Positions 39,622 through 49,053 of a DNA stretch of 64,000 nt are shown here, one piece after another (position 1 is the first letter of the stretch; each line of letters begins with the position of its first letter). Source of the DNA: Stieleria neptunia. GTDB taxonomy: Bacteria; Planctomycetota; Planctomycetia; Pirellulales; Pirellulaceae. The stretch covers positions 992,001-1,056,000 of the forward strand of contig NZ_CP037423.1 in NCBI RefSeq assembly GCF_007754155.1, given 5' to 3'. A model generated the notes under the pieces. It saw only the letters and a program-made list of their open reading frames with translations, did no database searches and was not told the DNA's origin. The position numbers were made by a program, and so were the translations under genes.

Positions 39622-40047
39622 TCACCGCTGGTGGGCGGAGTTAAACTGGTAGTAGTGCAGGAAATTGTTGAACGTCCCGCCTCGTCCCGTCTGCATCCGT
39701 TCGCTCTGGGCCGTCGGGGCCGCCGATCGCTGGATCGTTCGTTCCAGTCTGCGAAGCTGCTCGGCTTGTCGGTTCTGACTCTGACGCATCTGTTGACGCG
39801 GCTGAACGAACGAGTGATAGGGGCTCAAGACGCTGTTGTCGCTGCGCAGCAAATCCAGATAAGGCGACAAACGCTGTTGGTAAGGCGCCGTGGACGCGCG
39901 ATTGGAACCGCCGCCGAATCCTCGCATCGGTGCCTGGGCGTGGGCGGATCCGGGCAAGGCAACCAGCGCCAAGCCGACCGGCACCATGATGAGGGGGCGG
40001 ACGATTCGATCGCGGAGTCGAGTTGAATTGCGAAGCTGTTTGATCAT
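39622..40047 (-). CDS. Small secreted protein with SPYL motif
   Basis: 141 residues from the ATG after GGAAAA; upstream in-frame start at 40083 is not preferred. Signal peptide (VGLALVALPGSAHA, cleavage about residue 38). Mature part Gly/Gln-rich with QQRLSPYLDLLR and FNNFLHYYQFN, a pattern I associate with small secreted planctomycete proteins of unknown role. First gene of the leftward operon. Confidence 0.75.
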   Translation of the reverse strand: MIKQLRNSTRLRDRIVRPLIMVPVGLALVALPGSAHAQAPMRGFGGGSNRASTAPYQQRLSPYLDLLRSDNSVLSPYHSFVQPRQQMRQSQNRQAEQLRRLERTIQRSAAPTAQSERMQTGRGGTFNNFLHYYQFNSAHQR

Positions 40048-40286
40048 TGCCGTTTTCCACGGGGTGCTATGGGGCTTACCCACCCTATCGTCCGCCTAAC
40101 CGGTACATCTTTCCTCTGTTCTGCAAAAAACGCAGGATTGTCTTGGAAATGTCTCAAGCATCAACGGCGCGTTCGGCGTGTCGAACTGCACACCTGTCCG
40201 GGTTCGTTCTGCAAATCCGGTCATAGCGAAACGTCGCGGTCTGCGGACGAAAAACGATTCGATGGCGTTGCATTTTCGGTGACGCC

Positions 40287-40348: not shown

Positions 40349-43300
40349 GTGCAATCGAATCTGCAGGCTCCCCGAATGGGCACATGCCGCGGCTGGCGAG
40401 GCAAATCGACTGGCGTTTCGGCTCGGCCTTCACCGACGCGGATCCAGGCTTGGCTGACATTGGCTTGGCTGGCATTGGTTCTGTGTTGCTACCGTCAGGT
40501 GATGGGGCATCTGTTTCAACAGTGGCACTCCCAGACGAGTTATTCTCATGGGCCGGCGGTTCTGCCGATTGCCATTTGGTTGTTGTGGCAGCGGAGATCG
40601 ACCCTGCCGGCGATCGGCAAGCCATGGGGACCCGGACTGGCGTTGCTTTTAGCCGCTCAAGGTTTTCTGTGGCTAGGCGGATACTTTCATCTTCCAACGC
40701 TGCAATGTTGGACTCTGCCCCTTTACCTCTGCGGAATGGTCGGTTTGCTGGCCGGCCGCGAAGTGTTGGGCTGGAGTTTGCCGGCGATCGGCTTTCTGGG
40801 GTTCATGATCCCGCTTCCGTTTCAGTTGGAATTGCTGGCAAATCAATCGTTGCAATGGTTGTCCGCCTGGTGCAGTTGTTACCTGCTCAGTCTGACGTCG
40901 ACCTTTGCCGTGACCGACGGCTACACGCTGATGATGGCGACCGGCGGGGTGGGGATCACCAAAGATTGCAGCGGATTGCGAATGACCGTGGCTGTCGTGG
41001 CACTGGGGACCATCATCACCTTTCTCGCCCGATCGCGGTCTGATCGGGACCGAGGTGGCCCCGCGCCGGGGTGGAGCGTGGTGCGGGATTTGGCCACGGT
41101 GATGTTGCTGGCAGTGCCGGCGGCCATTTTGGCCAACGCCGCCCGGATTTCAGTCGTCGCCTGGGTGGCGGACCGCTACCAAACCGAGTCGTACACAAGG
41201 TGGGCCCATGACCTGGGCGATTGGTTGGCATTGCCCCTGTCGGCCCTGTTGTTTTTGGCGTTTCGGGCTTGGATCAGCAGGACGCGTGCTTTGTCAACGT
41301 TTCAACGTGGCGTGGGACCGGACGGTTCGCGCCGTTCCGCAACGGTGCTAGCGACAGCCCACGAGCCCTCCGGTCGGATCAACCCTCAAGTGGCAATCCG
41401 GAGACTGCGCGGTGGTGATCGTGATTTCGATGGCGGCAGATGCTGGGCAGCCTGGGGCAAGTCCGTGGTGGCGGTGGGGGCTGTGCCCTTGGTCATCGCC
41501 GGCATCGTCGCTGTCGCGATGGTTCATCATGCGGCCAAGCGAGAACGCATCATCCGCGAAACCCTGACCGAGGCACGCGTTCACGAAGCCAACGCCGACT
41601 GGGATGGTGCGGCCATGTGTTACCGAACGTTGTTGCAGCTGCAGCCGGAACAGATCGACGCTCGCTATCGTTATGCCTGGGCGTCGCTCCAGGGAGCGGA
41701 CTCCGTCGACGCTTCCATGCAGGCCTTTTATCAACTCGAATCCGTCCTCGAGCAAGCGCCGTCGCATGTCGATGCCTTGCGAACGCATTTGGAATTGGCG
41801 TTGGACCTTGATCAGGCAAAATCAGCCAGCCGCAGCGCCGAACGCCTTTACGGGATCGATCGCCGCGACGCGCATTCGCTGCGGCTGTGTGTGGAAGCCA
41901 TGCTGCGATTCCCCCACGGCTCGGGCGACCGTCACCCGTTGATCACGGTCGATCGGCTGAACCGATGGATGGAACGATTCGGTCCCACGTCCCAGTGGCG
42001 GGATCGTTTGGTGATCGAGGTGGCATCGTATTGCTGCGATCACGCAAAGTCGATGGATCGGCGTGTGACCAGCGCGATCGAACCGGCGATCGCCGATGCG
42101 GCCGACGGGGTCGGTTCAACGTACGCCTTCCTTCAAGCGTGGCGATACGCGCATGTGTTCGGCACGGGAACTCCGTCCATCGAACGGGCTCGGTTGAGTA
42201 TCGACAACCAGTGCCCGGCCGGGGTGGCCTATCGGATTTATCTGGCCAGTGCGCAGGAAGCTGTGTTGCAACGTCGTCGCGACGATGCGAAACGGTTTCT
42301 GACCCGAGCGATTGAGCGGCTGCCGAATCACCATGCGGCCTACGCGATTTTAGGCGATGTTTTCGCCAGCCAGGGACAATGGCCGCAATGCACCGCGGCG
42401 TACCTGCGGGCGTGGCGGTTGGTGGGGGATCGCCCGATGGGACTGGGGATCAAACTGGCCGAGGCGTTGTTTCAAGCGGAGCGTTATGCGGAGTCGGCTG
42501 CGTTGGTGGGGCAGTTGCTGAAGCAGGAAAACCAAACGCTTCGTCCCGTCAGCCGCGATCTGCGGATCCGCTGGATGCTGGTTCAAGCCGGGCTGGATGC
42601 CCGCGATGGGCGGCACGAACGAGCGCTCGAGACGATCGGGCGTTGCCGATCCTTGATCGCGATGTCGCCGGCACCGTCGGCCGACGAGGCCGCCGCGTGG
42701 TTGCCGGCGCTGGAAACGCTGCAGGCTCGCTGTCTGGTTCGCTTGGGCCGCTATGCCCAAGCCGCCACCTTGTTCGAGTCGCGTGCGGCCGACGGCGATC
42801 GTTCAGCCGACGGCGATCGTGCGGCCGACGGTAAGCGTTCAGCCGATCAATGGACGGCGGCCGCTCGAGCCTGGCGATCCGACGGCAACTTGCCGGCCGC
42901 CGAACGCTGCTATCGCAGTGCGCTCTCGGAACTGGGGTATGACAACGAAATCTGGCTGGAACTGGTCGACTTGCTCCGCGACCGATACGGAGTCCGCGGC
43001 GCGCTCGAGGAGATTGCGCTGCGGCAACGACGCGGTGGCGCGACTGCTGCTGCCACGCAGCGAACCGCCCCTTCGGAGGAGATGCTTGCCCAAGCCTATG
43101 AACGGGTTGGCCGAGGCGATCTCGCCATCCGGCACTATCGGACCGTTGCCGAGCGAGGTGTTGAAGACGTCGCGGCGCTGGCGATCGCGTTGGCGCGTCA
43201 CGGGCATGCCGACAAGGCGGTCGCGTTGGTTTCCGATCCGCGCTGGACGGTCAACACTTCCCTGAGGGCTCATACCGCCGCCGTGATCGCGGTCAGCACG

Positions 43301-43900
43301 ACCGAATGGTCACCCGCCGACCAGGCGACTTTGGAACCAATCATCCAGCGCGGCGTGATCGAGGCGGTCGATGACCCGGCGCTGCTGATGGCGATCGTGG
43401 CCTGGCATACGCATCACCGGCGCAAGACCGCTGCGCTGGAATTGCTCGATCGCGCCGTGACGCGACACCCCGACAACGTCGTCGCCGCAAACAACTTGGC
43501 GATGCGATTGGCCGAAGAAGGGCGTGATCTTCAGCGGGCACTTCGACACATCGATGACGTCTTGAAACAGACCGGTCCGGTGTCCGAATTCTTGGACACC
43601 AAGGGTTGGATCTTGGTCCAGATGGATCGTGCCGAAGACGCACTGGTGTGGTTCAGGCGTGCCGTCGCAGGTCCCGGTGGTGCCGCTCCGACCACACACC
43701 TCCACATGGCAGCCGCCTACTTGGCGGTCGGCAATCGCGATCAAGCTCGAGAATCCTATCAGTCGGTCCAGGTCGAACGGCTTCACGTCGATCAGCTGCA
43801 TCACAGCGAACAGCGCGCCTGGGCCAGGCTACAAAGCGAATTCACTCGCCCGAACGAATTGACCACACGGCCCCCCTTGCAGCGGAGCGGCGAAGCCTGA
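40349..43900 (+). CDS. Exosortase fused to a long TPR domain
   Basis: 1183 residues. Exosortase part (30-320): about eight TM segments, SYSHGPAVLPIAIWLL, and catalytic triad Cys207 (TKDCSGLRM), Arg266 (NAARIS) and His287 (HDLGDW). A linker (about 320-370) contains a repeat-derived stretch, then one TM (about 375-394) and about 780 residues of helical TPR repeats with an inserted AADGDRSADGDRAADG region (about 811-832). Exosortases cleave C-terminal PEP-CTERM-like signals at the inner membrane; the TPR part probably faces the periplasm (inference). GTG start without obvious ribosome site. TGATG overlap with the EpsI-like gene. Confidence 0.88.
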   Translation: MQSNLQAPRMGTCRGWRGKSTGVSARPSPTRIQAWLTLAWLALVLCCYRQVMGHLFQQWHSQTSYSHGPAVLPIAIWLLWQRRSTLPAIGKPWGPGLALLLAAQGFLWLGGYFHLPTLQCWTLPLYLCGMVGLLAGREVLGWSLPAIGFLGFMIPLPFQLELLANQSLQWLSAWCSCYLLSLTSTFAVTDGYTLMMATGGVGITKDCSGLRMTVAVVALGTIITFLARSRSDRDRGGPAPGWSVVRDLATVMLLAVPAAILANAARISVVAWVADRYQTESYTRWAHDLGDWLALPLSALLFLAFRAWISRTRALSTFQRGVGPDGSRRSATVLATAHEPSGRINPQVAIRRLRGGDRDFDGGRCWAAWGKSVVAVGAVPLVIAGIVAVAMVHHAAKRERIIRETLTEARVHEANADWDGAAMCYRTLLQLQPEQIDARYRYAWASLQGADSVDASMQAFYQLESVLEQAPSHVDALRTHLELALDLDQAKSASRSAERLYGIDRRDAHSLRLCVEAMLRFPHGSGDRHPLITVDRLNRWMERFGPTSQWRDRLVIEVASYCCDHAKSMDRRVTSAIEPAIADAADGVGSTYAFLQAWRYAHVFGTGTPSIERARLSIDNQCPAGVAYRIYLASAQEAVLQRRRDDAKRFLTRAIERLPNHHAAYAILGDVFASQGQWPQCTAAYLRAWRLVGDRPMGLGIKLAEALFQAERYAESAALVGQLLKQENQTLRPVSRDLRIRWMLVQAGLDARDGRHERALETIGRCRSLIAMSPAPSADEAAAWLPALETLQARCLVRLGRYAQAATLFESRAADGDRSADGDRAADGKRSADQWTAAARAWRSDGNLPAAERCYRSALSELGYDNEIWLELVDLLRDRYGVRGALEEIALRQRRGGATAAATQRTAPSEEMLAQAYERVGRGDLAIRHYRTVAERGVEDVAALAIALARHGHADKAVALVSDPRWTVNTSLRAHTAAVIAVSTTEWSPADQATLEPIIQRGVIEAVDDPALLMAIVAWHTHHRRKTAALELLDRAVTRHPDNVVAANNLAMRLAEEGRDLQRALRHIDDVLKQTGPVSEFLDTKGWILVQMDRAEDALVWFRRAVAGPGGAAPTTHLHMAAAYLAVGNRDQARESYQSVQVERLHVDQLHHSEQRAWARLQSEFTRPNELTTRPPLQRSGEA
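41347..41377. repeat. Half of the palindromic repeat inside the exosortase gene
   Basis: 'gctagcgacagcccacgag' followed by 'ccctccggtcgg' matches the left half of the long palindromic repeats at 21174 and 62166. It encodes VLATAHEPSGR (about residues 334-344) in the linker between exosortase and TPR parts. Confidence 0.65.
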
Positions 43901-44550
43901 TGGATTTCCGTTTGACCCGAATGAAGGCCGCGGTGTTGGGTTGCTCCCTTGCCCTGGTCGGTTGTCTGGCGACCACTGGTGCGCGCACCGGTGTGCCGCC
44001 GCAATGCGCGTTTGAGTTGGCCGAGACGCTCGGCGGATGGGAGCTGATCGAGCGCTGCGAATTGCAGCCGAGTGAGCTGGAGATTCTGCAGGCGGGAGAT
44101 CACTGGCGATGTGTCTATCAACATCGCCAGACCAAGCAGGTCGTGGTCGTGACCTTGATCGCGGGGCCGGGAGGTCCGCTGGCCAGCCATCTGCCGGAGA
44201 CCTGTTATGCGCGGACCGAGTTCCGTGCGCACACTGAGCCCGTCGTTTGGAACGTGCCGGATCAGCCGGACCGGTTCCGTTTTCAAACACTGCAGCCGCG
44301 GAACGTCGATCAACCCGCGCTGACGATCGCCTACGCCTGGCACGATGGATCGCGGTGGCGGGCGCCGCGGTACCCACGCTTTCAACTGGCCGGTCATCCG
44401 ACGTTGCAACGATTGCTCGTCACCATGCGGCACCCCGGCGGGATGACGGCGGAGGCTCAGCAGGTGATCCGGCAAGTCGTTCGGCTGACCGTCGACTCCT
44501 CACCGACGCGAGTGACACAGCGCTCGATTCCGGCCCCGAATTTAAAATGA
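43900..44550 (+). CDS. EpsI-like exosortase-associated lipoprotein (DUF3485-like)
   Basis: 216 residues from an ATG overlapping the exosortase stop. Lipobox LALVGC (Cys about residue 22). Mature part: GWELIERCELQPSELEILQA, HLPETCYARTEFRA and RWRAPRYPRF fit the EpsI family, which in many bacteria is fused to or adjacent to exosortase and has a conserved PxxCY-like motif. Periplasmic, probably an exosortase helper. Stop overlaps the protease start (ATGA). Confidence 0.82.
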   Translation: MDFRLTRMKAAVLGCSLALVGCLATTGARTGVPPQCAFELAETLGGWELIERCELQPSELEILQAGDHWRCVYQHRQTKQVVVVTLIAGPGGPLASHLPETCYARTEFRAHTEPVVWNVPDQPDRFRFQTLQPRNVDQPALTIAYAWHDGSRWRAPRYPRFQLAGHPTLQRLLVTMRHPGGMTAEAQQVIRQVVRLTVDSSPTRVTQRSIPAPNLK

Positions 44551-45587
44551 ACCGACACCAGAACCAAATTCAAACCATGCCCACGGTCATCAAACCAACC
44601 CGCCTCGTCGAACTGCAAACCCGCCGCCCCGGGCGCCCGCTCGGGCGTGCGTGTGGCGGACTCTTGCTGGTGCTTTTGCTGGGTGCCGAGCAAACCGCGA
44701 ACGGCGGCACGATTCGTCACGATCGCTCCGATTCCAGTTACACGAGCTTGGCCACCAGCTATCCGGCGGTGGGCGCGTTGACGTGGAGTTCGATGATCTG
44801 TTCGGCCACGTTGATCGAAGAAGACTGGATTCTGACGGCCGGGCACTGTTTGGATGAGGTCGGTCTGTCGGCGAGCGACTGGACGTTTGATTTGACCGAT
44901 AGCGGCGGCGGGGTCCACGTGGGGGCCGAGCGGTTTGTGTTTTCGGGCTGGACGGGCGATCTTCAAACGGGGACCGACATCGCCCTGTTGAGACTGGCCA
45001 CGAGCGAAACGACCGTGACGCCGGCGACCATCAACACCAACACGTCCGAAGTCGGGCAGACGGCAACCCACGTCGGGTACGGGGTCACGGGCAATGGTGC
45101 GACGGGCATCACCGCACCGGCGGGCACGAAACGGGCCGGTCAAAACGTCGTCGATGTCGATGGCAGTGCGGTTTCGGGCTACAGCGACGATATTCTCTTT
45201 GAAGATTTCGACAGCGGATCGGCGGGCGACAACGTTTTTGGGACGGCAACGCAGCAGGATCTGGAATACTTGATCGCCGGCGGAGACAGCGGAGGCGCGG
45301 TGTTCATGGACTTCGGCAGCGGCGAAGTCCTGGCCGGGGTGCACTCGTTCATCGCCAGCGTGGATGGCAATCTGGATGCGGACTATGGTGATCTGGCCGG
45401 TTCGATCAAGGTTTCGTCGTACGCGTCATGGATCACGTCCACGATCTCCGGCGGCGATCCGGTCGCGCCCGAGTTGTCATCCTGGATGATGTGGATGGTG
45501 TTCGCCGTGGGGTTGTGGATGACCTCTCGTTCCAAACCGACGGTCGTCGAGCGGAAAAGGGGTCAGGTACGAATGGCACGGGCATAA
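44547..45587 (+). CDS. Trypsin-like serine protease with PEP-CTERM-like tail
   Basis: 346 residues. N-terminal signal (LGRACGGLLLVLLLGAEQTANG). Chymotrypsin fold with catalytic His100 (TAGHC), Asp144 (GTDIALL) and Ser248 (GGDSGG). The C-terminus has APELSSWMMWMVFAVGLWM (PELSS at 308-312), a hydrophobic segment and a basic tail, the three-part layout of an exosortase sorting signal with PEL in place of PEP. It is the third gene of the exosortase operon, so it is a plausible substrate. A second ATG at 44577 is also possible. Confidence 0.87.
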   Translation: MNRHQNQIQTMPTVIKPTRLVELQTRRPGRPLGRACGGLLLVLLLGAEQTANGGTIRHDRSDSSYTSLATSYPAVGALTWSSMICSATLIEEDWILTAGHCLDEVGLSASDWTFDLTDSGGGVHVGAERFVFSGWTGDLQTGTDIALLRLATSETTVTPATINTNTSEVGQTATHVGYGVTGNGATGITAPAGTKRAGQNVVDVDGSAVSGYSDDILFEDFDSGSAGDNVFGTATQQDLEYLIAGGDSGGAVFMDFGSGEVLAGVHSFIASVDGNLDADYGDLAGSIKVSSYASWITSTISGGDPVAPELSSWMMWMVFAVGLWMTSRSKPTVVERKRGQVRMARA

Positions 45588-45629
45588 GTAGAACGGGATT
45601 CAGCAACCGTTGTACGACGTCCTTTTTAG

Positions 45630-45808
45630 GTCGCCGGGGCGAGCCCCACGGGCGACGGCCCGGAAGGGCCATCGTACTCGAACAAGCGGTCGTCGGGGCG
45701 AGCCCTCCGGGCGACGGCCCGGAAGGGGCCATCGTACTCGAACAAGCGGTCGTCGGGGCGAGTCCCACGGGCGACGGCCCGGAAGGGCCATCGTACATCA
45801 GAAAAGCG
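45630..45808. repeat. Three tandem 59-60-bp units
   Basis: Units 45630-45688, 45689-45748 and 45749-45808 share 'cgacggcccggaag' and 'gggccatcgtac'. They are an expanded, inverted version of the hairpin repeat at 21.37 kb. The 310-base gap contains no gene. Confidence 0.85.
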
Positions 45809-45897
45809 ATCGCCTTCAGCTGGGCGGCTAAAGCCTGCACACCAACACTGATGCCTGTGCCATCCGCGGCATCCTCAGTTTAGAGGTTGCCGAAGCG

Positions 45898-48800
45898 CTA
45901 GGCCGCTTTGTTCCGCGACGCGTTGCGATCCGTGTCCCGCCGATCGGCCAACTTCGATTCCGGCCGATACCAGATCGTCGATTCCGAAACTGGATCCAAT
46001 TCGATCCGTTGGAACAGCATGACCTGCGGACGTGTAAAGCAGGCCGCCCGAGTGCGAATCATCTTGCGTAGCAACGTTTCGACTCGATAGCCGAGTTTGG
46101 TCATTCCCGGCATCAGGCTTAGCACGCGGTCGACGACGTCGCTAAACATTCGGTTGCGGCGACTGCCCCGATCGTTGCTATACAGCCCCAGCGAATTGTT
46201 GGCGTAGTGGGCCGGCACGACGCTCCGCAGCTTCAGGCCTGCCAGTTCAAGACACTGTATGAAATGCGAAGGCGGGAAACCGAATTCGTAAACGCCGTAG
46301 GATTGGCTGTATGGATGGCCTTGCAGGAATTGATAGAGTTCCGTCGCCGATTCCACGTACGGTTCTCGGATCATCACCCACTTTCCCCCCGGGGCCATCT
46401 TTTGACGAATCGCGGCGGCGACAAACGCGATATTGGGGAAATGGTGCACGCAGTTTCGAGTGATGACCGTCTGGTACATCTTGTCCGAATCGTAGAACGC
46501 GTCGAGCGAATGTTCGATCTCAATGGGTGCCGCGTCGACGCGTGAACGCAAGTAGCCTGTGCCGGTGATGTAGTTCGGATTGGGCTCCAACAGCGAGATG
46601 TCCTGGTATCCTTCCTGGCAGAGCGCCCAGGAGAGGAACCCGCTGCCGCCACCGATCTCAACGGTCGGCTGGTCCTTTTCGATTCCCATCAGCCGCAAAA
46701 GCTTCAGCGTCGATTGGAAGTCCAGGCTTTCGTGGAATCGTCGGAATGCGAGGTCTCGGTCCGATTCCCAATAGACGGATTCCAAGACCTTTGCGGCGAC
46801 GGGATCCGACTTTGCGTTTTCGTTTTCGGCTTCAATCAAGCGTTCCCAAAGGTCGGGATCTTCACGAAGCGGAAACAGCGACAGATCGTCAAGCTGCTGC
46901 GGATTGATTTTGGGTTTTTCTGATGTCCCGGGTTTTTTTCGTTGCGTGTCCTTCGCATCGCCATTCGACACGAATTGCTTGAGAGACGCTTCGCTCGGTG
47001 AAAACGCTTGATCAAACTCCGCGATGTCCAGCTTGGTCAGCGGTCCGAGATCGCGCTGTGAGAATCGTTGCTTCCGTATGCTCAGATAATTGTCGCTGTT
47101 GAGTTCTGGAAGGATCGAAGGGTTTTCTTCCTTGGAGATCCAATGGTCACCCAGGGCGAGATAGTCGACGTCCATGTATCCGAACGATTCCAATGCATCT
47201 TCGGCCGTGTCGACAATCGCCTCTCCGTTCACGTTGAAACTGGTGTTGATGACAATCGGCAACCCCGTCAGTTTCTCGAAGTGGGTGATGATCTGGTACA
47301 GGTCTTCATTTTCGGTTTGGCAAACGGTTTGTACCCTGGCCGTCCCGTCGGCATGCACCACCGACGGTGCGAGATTGCGTGTTTTCTCACGCGCCTGGCC
47401 GATCAGCAGCATGAACGGCGACTCTTCATGGATCTCAAAAAAATCGGAAACGCGTTCTCGCAAGCAAGCCGGGGCGAAGGGGCGAAATTCTTCGCGGTGC
47501 TTGACGCGCGCATTGAGCGTCTCCTTCATTGTTTCCAGCCCCGGATGAGCCAGCAAGGAGCGATGGCCCAGTGCTCGCGGACCGAACTCGGCGCGACTCG
47601 TACAGCGGGCGACAATTTTCCCGTCGGCAAGAGCGCGTGCGATTTCCTCGTGGATCGAATCCGGACGGGTGGCCCGCACGTTGCGGCGTCGGATCGTTTC
47701 AGCCGCTTCCGCGTCGGTCACCTCGTGTCCGAAATAGCAAGACTTGATTCGTTGCCGGCTAATCGGATGCGACTCGTTGGCGGCCAACTGTGCCGCGCCG
47801 ACGGCGCATCCGTCGTCCGCTGCCGCGGGATAGACGAAGATTCCGTCGCAACCGCTATTGGTTCGAATCGCCTCGTTCATCAGACCGTTGAGCGCCACAC
47901 CTCCGGCGAGCGCCACATTCGGCAATCCGGTCAACGCGATCGCCTGCCGAACCAATTCGACGCCTGTCTTCTCGGTCAGTTCTTGAACCGAGGCGGCCAA
48001 ATCAAAGTGCTGTTGCTGAATCGGATCTTCCGAAGCGCGTTGCGGCAACAGTTTGTGAAATGCTTCGGTGAACTGATAAGCGAGATGCCCATGCGGTCCG
48101 AGTTCGCCGAGCCGCAAATAGTCGGTCTCGTGCAACCAGAGCCTTGCCTGGGAATCGACGCTGATCATCTCGCGGAGGGCGTCGCGGTACGTCGGTTTGC
48201 CGTACGCCGACATTCCCATCACCTTGTATTCATCGCCGAGTTGGAAGCCGAGGTGTTGGGTGGCGAACAGATAGAAGATGCCCAAGCTGTGTGGCCAACT
48301 GCTTTCGCTAACCCTTGTTAGAGATCCCGATTCCGCTCGATAGACGCTGACCGTGTCCGCCTCTCCCATGCCGTCGATCACGATCACCGTTGCGCTTTCG
48401 AATCCGGAATTGAAGTACGCCGAAGCCGCATGGGATTCATGGTGATTGAAAAACCGAATCGGCACACCGTCCACGTATCGGGTGATCGTGTCGGCGATCT
48501 GGCCATACTTGACCGCCCAATTCCAGTACCATGTCATCCGCTTCAAAAGTCGATGATTGGTCGTTTGATCGAGTCCGAGTGCTTGCAGATGGGCCAGCAA
48601 TTCGTGAGCCCATTCGGTCGGCCGGTCGACCGACAAGTACTCGCGATCGGAGAGCCGTCGGGACAGGAAGTCACAGATCGATTGCGACGCGAGCGAATCG
48701 GGGACCAGCCGGCCGATTTCTTGAAACATCGTCTTGGTGACGAATTCGTCTGAGCGAAAATTGACCGCGACAGAGTCCAGGGTCATCCCGCGTTCTGTCG

Positions 48801-49053
48801 CAACTCGGCAACATTCATCAATGGCGCCTACCGGAAAATGCCAATCGTGTTTTCGATTGGTCAACCGCTCTTCGGCGACGGCGAACAACACGCGTCCCGA
48901 TTTGGCCTCCACCAAGGAAGCCGCCGCGTCATGCCCGAACGTTCCAATCCCGAGGACGGCGGCGCGATCGTCGTCGCCGCGCGGTGCGAGCTGGGGATAG
49001 GATGACAGAAGGGGCTCCGAATCGTCCGAGTGAATGTTGAACATGCGATGCAC
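45898..49053 (-). CDS. Carbamoyltransferase fused to a methyltransferase
   Basis: 1051 residues. N-terminal about 640 residues: NodU/TobZ-type carbamoyltransferase with HHESHAASAY (about 205), VIDGMGE, ALAGGVALNG and the YrdC-like C-terminal ADGKIVARC, EFGPRALGHRSLLA (about 490) and TSFNVNGEAI. After a charged linker (about 690-740), a class I methyltransferase: VEIGGGSGFLSWAL (about 797) and WVMIREPYVE. It would carbamoylate and methylate a sugar. GTG start close to AAGG; ATG at 49044 is the alternative. No signal peptide. Confidence 0.9.
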   Translation of the reverse strand: MHRMFNIHSDDSEPLLSSYPQLAPRGDDDRAAVLGIGTFGHDAAASLVEAKSGRVLFAVAEERLTNRKHDWHFPVGAIDECCRVATERGMTLDSVAVNFRSDEFVTKTMFQEIGRLVPDSLASQSICDFLSRRLSDREYLSVDRPTEWAHELLAHLQALGLDQTTNHRLLKRMTWYWNWAVKYGQIADTITRYVDGVPIRFFNHHESHAASAYFNSGFESATVIVIDGMGEADTVSVYRAESGSLTRVSESSWPHSLGIFYLFATQHLGFQLGDEYKVMGMSAYGKPTYRDALREMISVDSQARLWLHETDYLRLGELGPHGHLAYQFTEAFHKLLPQRASEDPIQQQHFDLAASVQELTEKTGVELVRQAIALTGLPNVALAGGVALNGLMNEAIRTNSGCDGIFVYPAAADDGCAVGAAQLAANESHPISRQRIKSCYFGHEVTDAEAAETIRRRNVRATRPDSIHEEIARALADGKIVARCTSRAEFGPRALGHRSLLAHPGLETMKETLNARVKHREEFRPFAPACLRERVSDFFEIHEESPFMLLIGQAREKTRNLAPSVVHADGTARVQTVCQTENEDLYQIITHFEKLTGLPIVINTSFNVNGEAIVDTAEDALESFGYMDVDYLALGDHWISKEENPSILPELNSDNYLSIRKQRFSQRDLGPLTKLDIAEFDQAFSPSEASLKQFVSNGDAKDTQRKKPGTSEKPKINPQQLDDLSLFPLREDPDLWERLIEAENENAKSDPVAAKVLESVYWESDRDLAFRRFHESLDFQSTLKLLRLMGIEKDQPTVEIGGGSGFLSWALCQEGYQDISLLEPNPNYITGTGYLRSRVDAAPIEIEHSLDAFYDSDKMYQTVITRNCVHHFPNIAFVAAAIRQKMAPGGKWVMIREPYVESATELYQFLQGHPYSQSYGVYEFGFPPSHFIQCLELAGLKLRSVVPAHYANNSLGLYSNDRGSRRNRMFSDVVDRVLSLMPGMTKLGYRVETLLRKMIRTRAACFTRPQVMLFQRIELDPVSESTIWYRPESKLADRRDTDRNASRNKAA

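Follow-up and report, generated by a model that had tools for sequence, protein, structure and literature searches.

Three genes at positions 40349-45587 (forward strand) of a 64,000-nucleotide stretch of the Stieleria neptunia genome (here termed the window; the source genome is a single contig of 10,975,817 bases) probably constitute a dedicated C-terminal sorting system, in which one exosortase serves one protease. The genes encode an exosortase fused to tetratricopeptide repeats (TPR), an EpsI-like protein and a trypsin-fold protease with a Pro-Glu-Leu (PEL) tail, and each stop codon overlaps the next start. An initial annotation of the window had proposed that the protease is the operon-encoded, dedicated cargo, with PEL replacing the Pro-Glu-Pro (PEP) of PEP-CTERM signals. 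That proposal is supported by the conservation of the tail, the adjacency of the genes, PEP-tailed relatives of the protease that serve as controls and the single occurrence of the tail. The coupling described in the same annotation (TGATG between the first and second genes and ATGA between the second and third) is present at both junctions. The same genes were observed in Stieleria sedimenti, Rhodopirellula sp. SM50 and JC639, strain TBK1r, strain CA13 and two Fuerstiella metagenome-assembled genomes (MAGs). The genes of the cassette are as follows.

40349..43900, forward strand: exosortase-TPR fusion gene (1183 amino acids; GTG start; open frame)
43900..44550, forward strand: EpsI-like (DUF3485) gene (216 amino acids; start within the TGATG overlap; PF11984; lipobox by eye)
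44547..45587, forward strand: trypsin-fold protease gene, the proposed single cargo (346 amino acids; start within the ATGA overlap; PF00089; triad His100/Asp144/Ser248)

The protease and its PEL tail

The description of the third gene product as a trypsin-like protease was confirmed as far as its fold is concerned. PF00089 was matched with an E value of 7.3e-20 (72.2 bits, against a cut-off of 20.6), and the catalytic triad of the S1 fold is intact. Trypsin specificity is marked by an Asp six residues ahead of the catalytic Ser. Leu242 occupies the specificity position here, and trypsin specificity was rejected for this enzyme. Values of pN/pS (the ratio of non-synonymous to synonymous change) given here and below are simple counting estimates over eight species, CA13 included.

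44547..44705, forward strand: signal peptide region (residues 1-53 of the protease), which evolves fast (pN/pS 0.83; hydrophobic stretch by eye)
45459..45542, forward strand: PEL tail of the protease, residues 305-332, PVAPELSSWMMW followed by a hydrophobic stretch (orthologue conservation, tail model, pN/pS)

The C-terminal tail of the protease reads VAPELSSWMMWMVFAVGLWMTSRSKPTVVERKRGQVRMARA. It had been described as PEL, a transmembrane stretch and a basic end; the first two elements are present, the third is weak, and the last 14 residues are unconstrained (pN/pS 0.96). The consensus PVAPEL-x-SWM-x-W, with both PEL and SW kept, is found in all seven orthologues of the genus, and Pro-Glu-Pro does not occur in the tail. 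The PEP-CTERM models (PF07589 and TIGR02595) gave no match to the tail at E values up to 1, and the protease is absent from the genome's 33 PF07589 matches. A chance resemblance to a sorting tail was rejected, since the tail is kept in 7/7 genus orthologues and PEL in 39 of 42 close homologues.

The pN/pS of the tail motif (residues 305-316) is 0.10, and the Pro, Glu and Leu codons vary silently. The corresponding values are 0.57 for the membrane stretch that follows, 0.15 for the mature protease (residues 54-303), 0.41 for the exosortase and 0.46 for the TPR. Judged from these comparisons, the PEL tail is a selected feature. They bear also on an alternative, namely that the tail is a plain membrane anchor, uncut by any exosortase, and that the genes are grouped for another reason, e.g. 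shared expression. The difference of PEL from PEP, the lack of a PEP-CTERM model match and the weak basic end would all be consistent with an anchor. However, an anchor requires no fixed PEL-SW motif, much less one constrained so far beyond the adjoining membrane stretch, and the sister homologues of the protease have ordinary PEP-CTERM tails. A plain anchor is, on balance, considered unlikely.

Fourteen genomes of the genus were searched with a model of the tail. It matched at one place in each of seven (E values of about 1e-17 to 1e-16), and beyond these places and one copy in an eighth genome nothing better than an E value of 0.03 was found. That copy, in a genome without the fusion (G006), is a decayed PEL protease (L097:5147-5374, reverse strand; E value 9e-7) whose remnant reads PELASW. 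The available part of PMC3237569 uses the term dedicated system for rhombosortase and describes there the pattern of an enzyme adjacent to its one target; in the cassette the enzyme adjoins its presumed target, and the tail model finds one match per genome.

The initial annotation had also suggested a genome-wide search for other PEL or PEP tails. The PEL tail was found at one place by the model, and the other tails are mostly PEP: 23 of the 33 PF07589 matches are over the cut-off, and 29 of 30 loci among the matches listed end in PEP tails. A different motif in all other substrates had been named as one half of what would refute the proposal. That half is what was observed, and a dedicated pair predicts the same. 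There are four other exosortase matches in the genome, one of them weak, and other exosortases are present in all 14 genus genomes. The weak one, fifth in the genome when the fusion is counted (L005; G000:C1:5661438-5664995), is in a 581-amino-acid frame with a C-terminal half that resembles, by eye, a CAAX-type membrane protease. PF07589 matches number 27, 31, 18, 15, 35, 19 and 22 in the genus genomes with the cassette and 22, 19, 21, 7, 16, 37 and 20 in those without it; ordinary PEP tails are equally common in the two groups (7-37 per genome).

Pairing with the cassette and origin of the tail

Seven of the 14 genomes of the genus have the fusion, and these same seven have a close protease (at least 74% identity). 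This co-occurrence alone was rejected as proof, since the neighbouring wza is distributed identically; because wza follows the same pattern within the genus, loci outside it are more telling. In two of these, CA13 (L127) and G756 (L182), the fusion, EpsI and the PEL protease are found together, and no wza or wzy homologues lie beside the cassette. The association with exopolysaccharide genes raised in the initial annotation stands within the genus, where wza and wzy homologues adjoin the cassette, and does not extend to CA13 and G756; such genes were rejected as part of the definition of the cassette. One Fuerstiella locus (L128) has EpsI and the PEL protease along with a fusion that is cut by the contig end and frame-shifted. 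Over all 11 PEL loci, EpsI is situated directly upstream of the protease in every case and an intact fusion upstream in nine.

A protease search of 241 family genomes (E values up to 1e-50) gave 10 positives, i.e. the seven genus genomes, CA13, G756 and G778. The G778 protease, which is 51% identical, ends in a VPEPSS tail; neither an exosortase nor an EpsI match was found in the 19.5 kb around it. Another eleven distant relatives, of which ten have PEP and one has PQP, likewise gave no exosortase or EpsI match in the 7 to 19 kb covered for each, so that exosortase or EpsI was seen near PEP- or PQP-tailed relatives at 0/12 loci. The flanks of the distant relatives measure 7.0 to 19.5 kb where contigs end, with 1.4 kb on one side in L173, and the set leaves out four distant matches in G057, two in G039 and one each in G037, G047 and G056. 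In L175 a weak match to the L005 protein (residues 476-577, 25% identity, E value 6.5e-4) falls outside the exosortase part of that protein and was not counted. Of the 23 close fusions that the protein search gave, 10 seem to share a contig with a PEL protease and none with the three PEP ones, contigs being matched by size. This is a weak pointer, because the fusion list is incomplete: the G010 fusion is absent from it, though seen at its locus, and 29 of the 39 PEL homologues have no matched fusion.

The homologues considered were the best 80 of 120 listed, from 587 matches. It is apparent that PEL is confined to the closest of these. Among the 42 close homologues (E values up to 2.4e-119 in the protein search), 39 have PEL and three have PEP; among the 38 that rank next, PEP is found in 26 and a different ending in 12. 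On a tree of the 80 proteases built without the tail (midpoint root; bootstrap not fully settled), the PEL label takes two changes, against a mean of 22 when labels are shuffled. The simplest history has one gain of PEL, on a branch with 97/95 support, and one reversion to PEP (P0039 and P0041). P0042, whose tail reads VPEPASWIIW, is situated just outside the PEL group. Most simply, PEL would have arisen once, from a PEP-CTERM tail.

Several points weigh against a dedicated sorting system. The tail has a weak basic end, in which Arg and Lys are scattered and not conserved and no RRRR-type cluster occurs. Given the distribution of wza, part of the genus co-occurrence is that of one accessory island. 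A second Fuerstiella locus (L129) has EpsI and the PEL protease with only a frame-shifted TPR remnant upstream, which, unless caused by a fault in the MAG, speaks against a strict pairing rule. P0039 and P0041, two close homologues, have returned to PEP. Finally, the claim of a single cargo relies on the tail model, which a PEL placed before an unlike membrane stretch would escape.

The fused exosortase and its relatives

The following features were identified in the fusion protein.

40469..41269, forward strand: exosortase domain, residues 41-307 (PF09721, E value 2.6e-38)
40964..40969, forward strand: Asp206-Cys207, the catalytic Cys preceded by a clade-specific Asp (residue check, clade alignment)
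41144..41146, forward strand: Arg266 of the NxxR motif (residue check, clade alignment)
41207..41221, forward strand: His287 to Asp291, HxxxD replacing HxxxG (clade alignment; HxxxG according to PMC1569441)
41465..41521, forward strand: extra membrane segment, residues 373-391, separating exosortase and TPR (hydropathy 2.67)
41534..43846, forward strand: TPR region, residues 396-1166, probably outside the inner membrane (Pfam TPR models, AlphaFold model, homology)

The PF09721 score is 132.3 bits, against a gathering score of 25.7. The triad reported in the initial annotation (Cys207, Arg266 and His287) is intact, and the CxG and NxxR motifs given for exosortases in the available part of the 2006 EpsH report (PMC1569441) are present. 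The long TPR stretch said to follow the exosortase was likewise found; it measures about 770 residues, and Pfam TPR matches span residues 406 to 1140. In the AlphaFold model, residues 396-1166 form consecutive helices, mostly with predicted local distance difference test (pLDDT) values of 60-90. The TPR part of the model is fair and the exosortase/membrane part poor (mean pLDDT 63.8, predicted template modelling score 0.34), and no solved structural relative of the exosortase domain was found by sequence search. Short in-frame repeats are situated inside the TPR region at 42782-42863, where orthologues vary in length.

Seven segments within the exosortase domain are above the hydropathy cut, and the eighth appears as a helix in the low-confidence AlphaFold model only. 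Lys and Arg number 6, versus 0 Asp and Glu, ahead of the first membrane segment, and 12 versus 5 in the linker. Hydropathy and charge distribution, with one expected membrane segment under the cut, suggest a cytoplasmic N-terminus and linker and a TPR arm outside, on the same face as Cys207, Arg266 and His287.

A comparison with hidden Markov models of known exosortase subtypes, as had been suggested, placed the protein in the family by PF09721 but in no named NCBIfam subtype (XrtA, XrtW, XrtD, XrtV and others), since no curated cut-off was reached; the best was XrtA, at 106.3 bits versus 208. The 8TM_EpsH model (TIGR02602; cut-off 105.55) gave 102.8 bits, 104.1 in another run and 106.2 with neighbours in frame. 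PrsT (TIGR02917) gave 101.9 bits, below its curated cut-off of 312.2.

The 18 cassette exosortases (the window fusion and 17 others) form one clade with 99/99 support, on a tree for which the software warns of long branches. L051 and L056 (internal stops), L063 and L070 (empty after trimming) and L064 (same genome as the G059 row) were left out. Active sites were compared between 31 clade rows (27 distinct; duplicates P0121, P0122, P0125 and P0131) and 26 others (one duplicate, SEP_G049 = STD_L059). The residue preceding the catalytic Cys is Asp in 30 of the 31 clade rows and Ala in 26/26 others. The fourth residue past the catalytic His is Asp in 27, Glu in two and Val in two of the clade rows, versus Gly in 25 of the 26 others, and residue 64 is Ser in 27/31 versus Asp in 24/26. 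HxxxG is among the conserved EpsH motifs in PMC1569441, and the fusion departs from it with Asp291. By sequence, then, the fusion is exosortase-family by Pfam and not EpsH sensu stricto, and the HxxxG deviation belongs to the whole clade. It is hypothesized that the changed residues by the Cys and His may determine the choice of motif.

These differences are relevant to a further alternative. The fused exosortase might be a general enzyme that also serves PEP proteins, or another exosortase might handle the protease, which would then be simply the nearest-encoded cargo. The other exosortase matches of the genome and its predominantly PEP-tailed PF07589 loci are in keeping with this, and cross-recognition may occur as far as sequence can tell. 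Nevertheless, PEP-tail counts are alike in genomes with and without the cassette, the PEP- and PQP-tailed protease relatives lack an adjoining exosortase at 12/12 loci, and the active-site flanks of the cassette clade differ. Either version is regarded as improbable.

Exosortase-TPR fusions were also observed in G039 and G059 (1741 and 1762 amino acids) and in P0144 (1695 amino acids), and a fusion unique to the cassette was rejected. Those of 1762 and 1741 amino acids (L099 and L100, respectively) are from other planctomycetes and lie outside the cassette clade on the tree. Such fusions thus occupy three positions on the tree: the cassette clade; G039 and G059, with G042; and P0144. G042 is counted as a large fusion by frame length alone (1742 amino acids), the stretch fetched for it (L098) containing part of the frame. 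This scatter would reflect either repeated fusion or fusion followed by splitting.

The EpsI-like protein, so named in the initial annotation, is narrowly over the gathering score of PF11984 (27.2 versus 26.1 bits). The window copy matched no NCBIfam family, and the G756 copy had a weak EpsI_type_V match, under the cut-off. An ordinary system at 4.19 Mb in the same genome (L164) comprises an exosortase, an ATPase (AAA_31 match; Wzc-like by reading), a 1669-amino-acid TPR protein, EpsI, a sugar transferase and a deacetylase. The C-terminal TPR part of the fusion resembles its TPR protein (E value 2e-16 over 271 residues), and the cassette EpsI resembles its EpsI (E value 9e-17). The order exosortase, TPR protein, EpsI is common to both; in the ordinary system, however, the TPR protein is separate, with the ATPase gene between it and the exosortase, and the sugar transferase and deacetylase genes follow EpsI where the cassette has the protease. 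A TPR protein followed by EpsI was also found near exosortases in G058 and G049. As judged by these resemblances, the cassette is a condensed form of the ordinary exosortase machine. PrsT, a TPR protein, was linked to PEP-CTERM systems by phylogenetic profile in the available part of PMC1569441; because the TPR arm is fused to the exosortase, this link is here a physical one.

A few neighbouring sequences may be mentioned. A 60-bp GC-rich tandem repeat (three copies, 45629-45812) lies immediately 3' of the protease gene, and a 1051-amino-acid carbamoyltransferase with a fused methyltransferase domain is encoded at 45898-49053 (reverse strand). A small secreted-looking protein adjoining wza (39622-40083, reverse strand) is kept in the seven cassette loci of the genus; its homologue at L038:10744-11157 adjoins another exosortase-TPR-wza cluster in the same genome.

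Proposed mechanism and comparison with known systems

In the mechanism proposed here, the protease would be exported by its signal peptide and kept at the inner membrane through its PEL tail. At the membrane's outer face the exosortase would recognize this single tail, cleave at or near PEL via Cys207 and hand the protease to an acceptor. Its partners on that face would be EpsI and the TPR arm, which might hold the cargo or the acceptor. The topology, the cleavage and transfer, the parts played by EpsI and TPR and the place where the protease ends up are all inferred from sequence; the cleavage chemistry is taken over, by analogy, from the sortase-like model of ArtA (available part of PMC7157517).

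A tentative extension is that of an orthogonal pair, in which the change from PEP to PEL may have co-evolved with Asp206, Asp291 and the loss of Asp64, so that the fused enzyme would read PEL and not PEP and the TPR arm would replace a separate partner. It is very unlikely that the protease belongs to the machine itself, e.g. by maturing the exosortase or the acceptor, instead of (or besides) being cargo. In favour of such a role, EpsI accompanies it at all 11 PEL loci, and its mature region has a lower pN/pS than the exosortase or TPR. Homologous PEP-tailed proteases, however, stand without neighbouring exosortase genes, and the lineage therefore has the look of sorted cargo that predates the pairing. 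One role does not preclude the other.

Comparisons with known systems were made against the available parts of the papers cited. The PEP-CTERM/EpsH system (Haft 2006, PMC1569441) shares with the cassette an exosortase with Cys, Arg and His, an EpsI-like protein, a TPR protein (PrsT in that system), cargo with a signal peptide, C-terminal motif and hydrophobic stretch, and a location near exopolysaccharide genes, as within the genus. The cassette differs from it in that it has a single cargo where the other has many, PEL replaces PEP, one polypeptide combines exosortase and TPR, HxxxD replaces HxxxG, and adjoining wza and wzy homologues are lacking in CA13 and G756. In the rhombosortase/GlyGly-CTERM system (PMC3237569), enzyme and single target are likewise encoded by neighbouring genes and trypsin homologues are among the cargo, although the enzyme family and signal are unrelated. 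Archaeosortase ArtA/PGF-CTERM (PMC7157517, PMC11980579) shares the proposed cysteine transpeptidase chemistry on a C-terminal tripartite tag; unlike the cassette, it is archaeal, with a lipid acceptor and many cargoes. In the exosortase-CAAX protease fusions (PMC1569441) a second domain is also joined to the exosortase, but it is a membrane protease and not a TPR arm; by eye, L005 resembles such a fusion.

In the titles and abstract openings of the openly licensed papers that literature searches listed, no report was found of an exosortase fused to TPR, of a PEL tag or of a trypsin-like protease as dedicated cargo, nor, in those listings, of the PEL tag, changed active-site flanks and built-in TPR arm combined in one conserved cassette. 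Tag recognition by exosortases, and the roles of EpsI and TPR, are known mostly from comparative genomics. The cassette reduces the problem to one enzyme and one adjacent cargo, with a one-letter change of tag and a few matching changes in the enzyme. It thus offers a natural pair for testing how sorting tags are read, with a ready activity read-out in the protease cargo and internal controls in the ordinary PEP-tailed proteins of the same cells. The presence of exosortase-TPR fusions in separate parts of the tree suggests a general partnership of the two, and, if the orthogonal pair is true, the motif choice of exosortases would be traceable to named residues.

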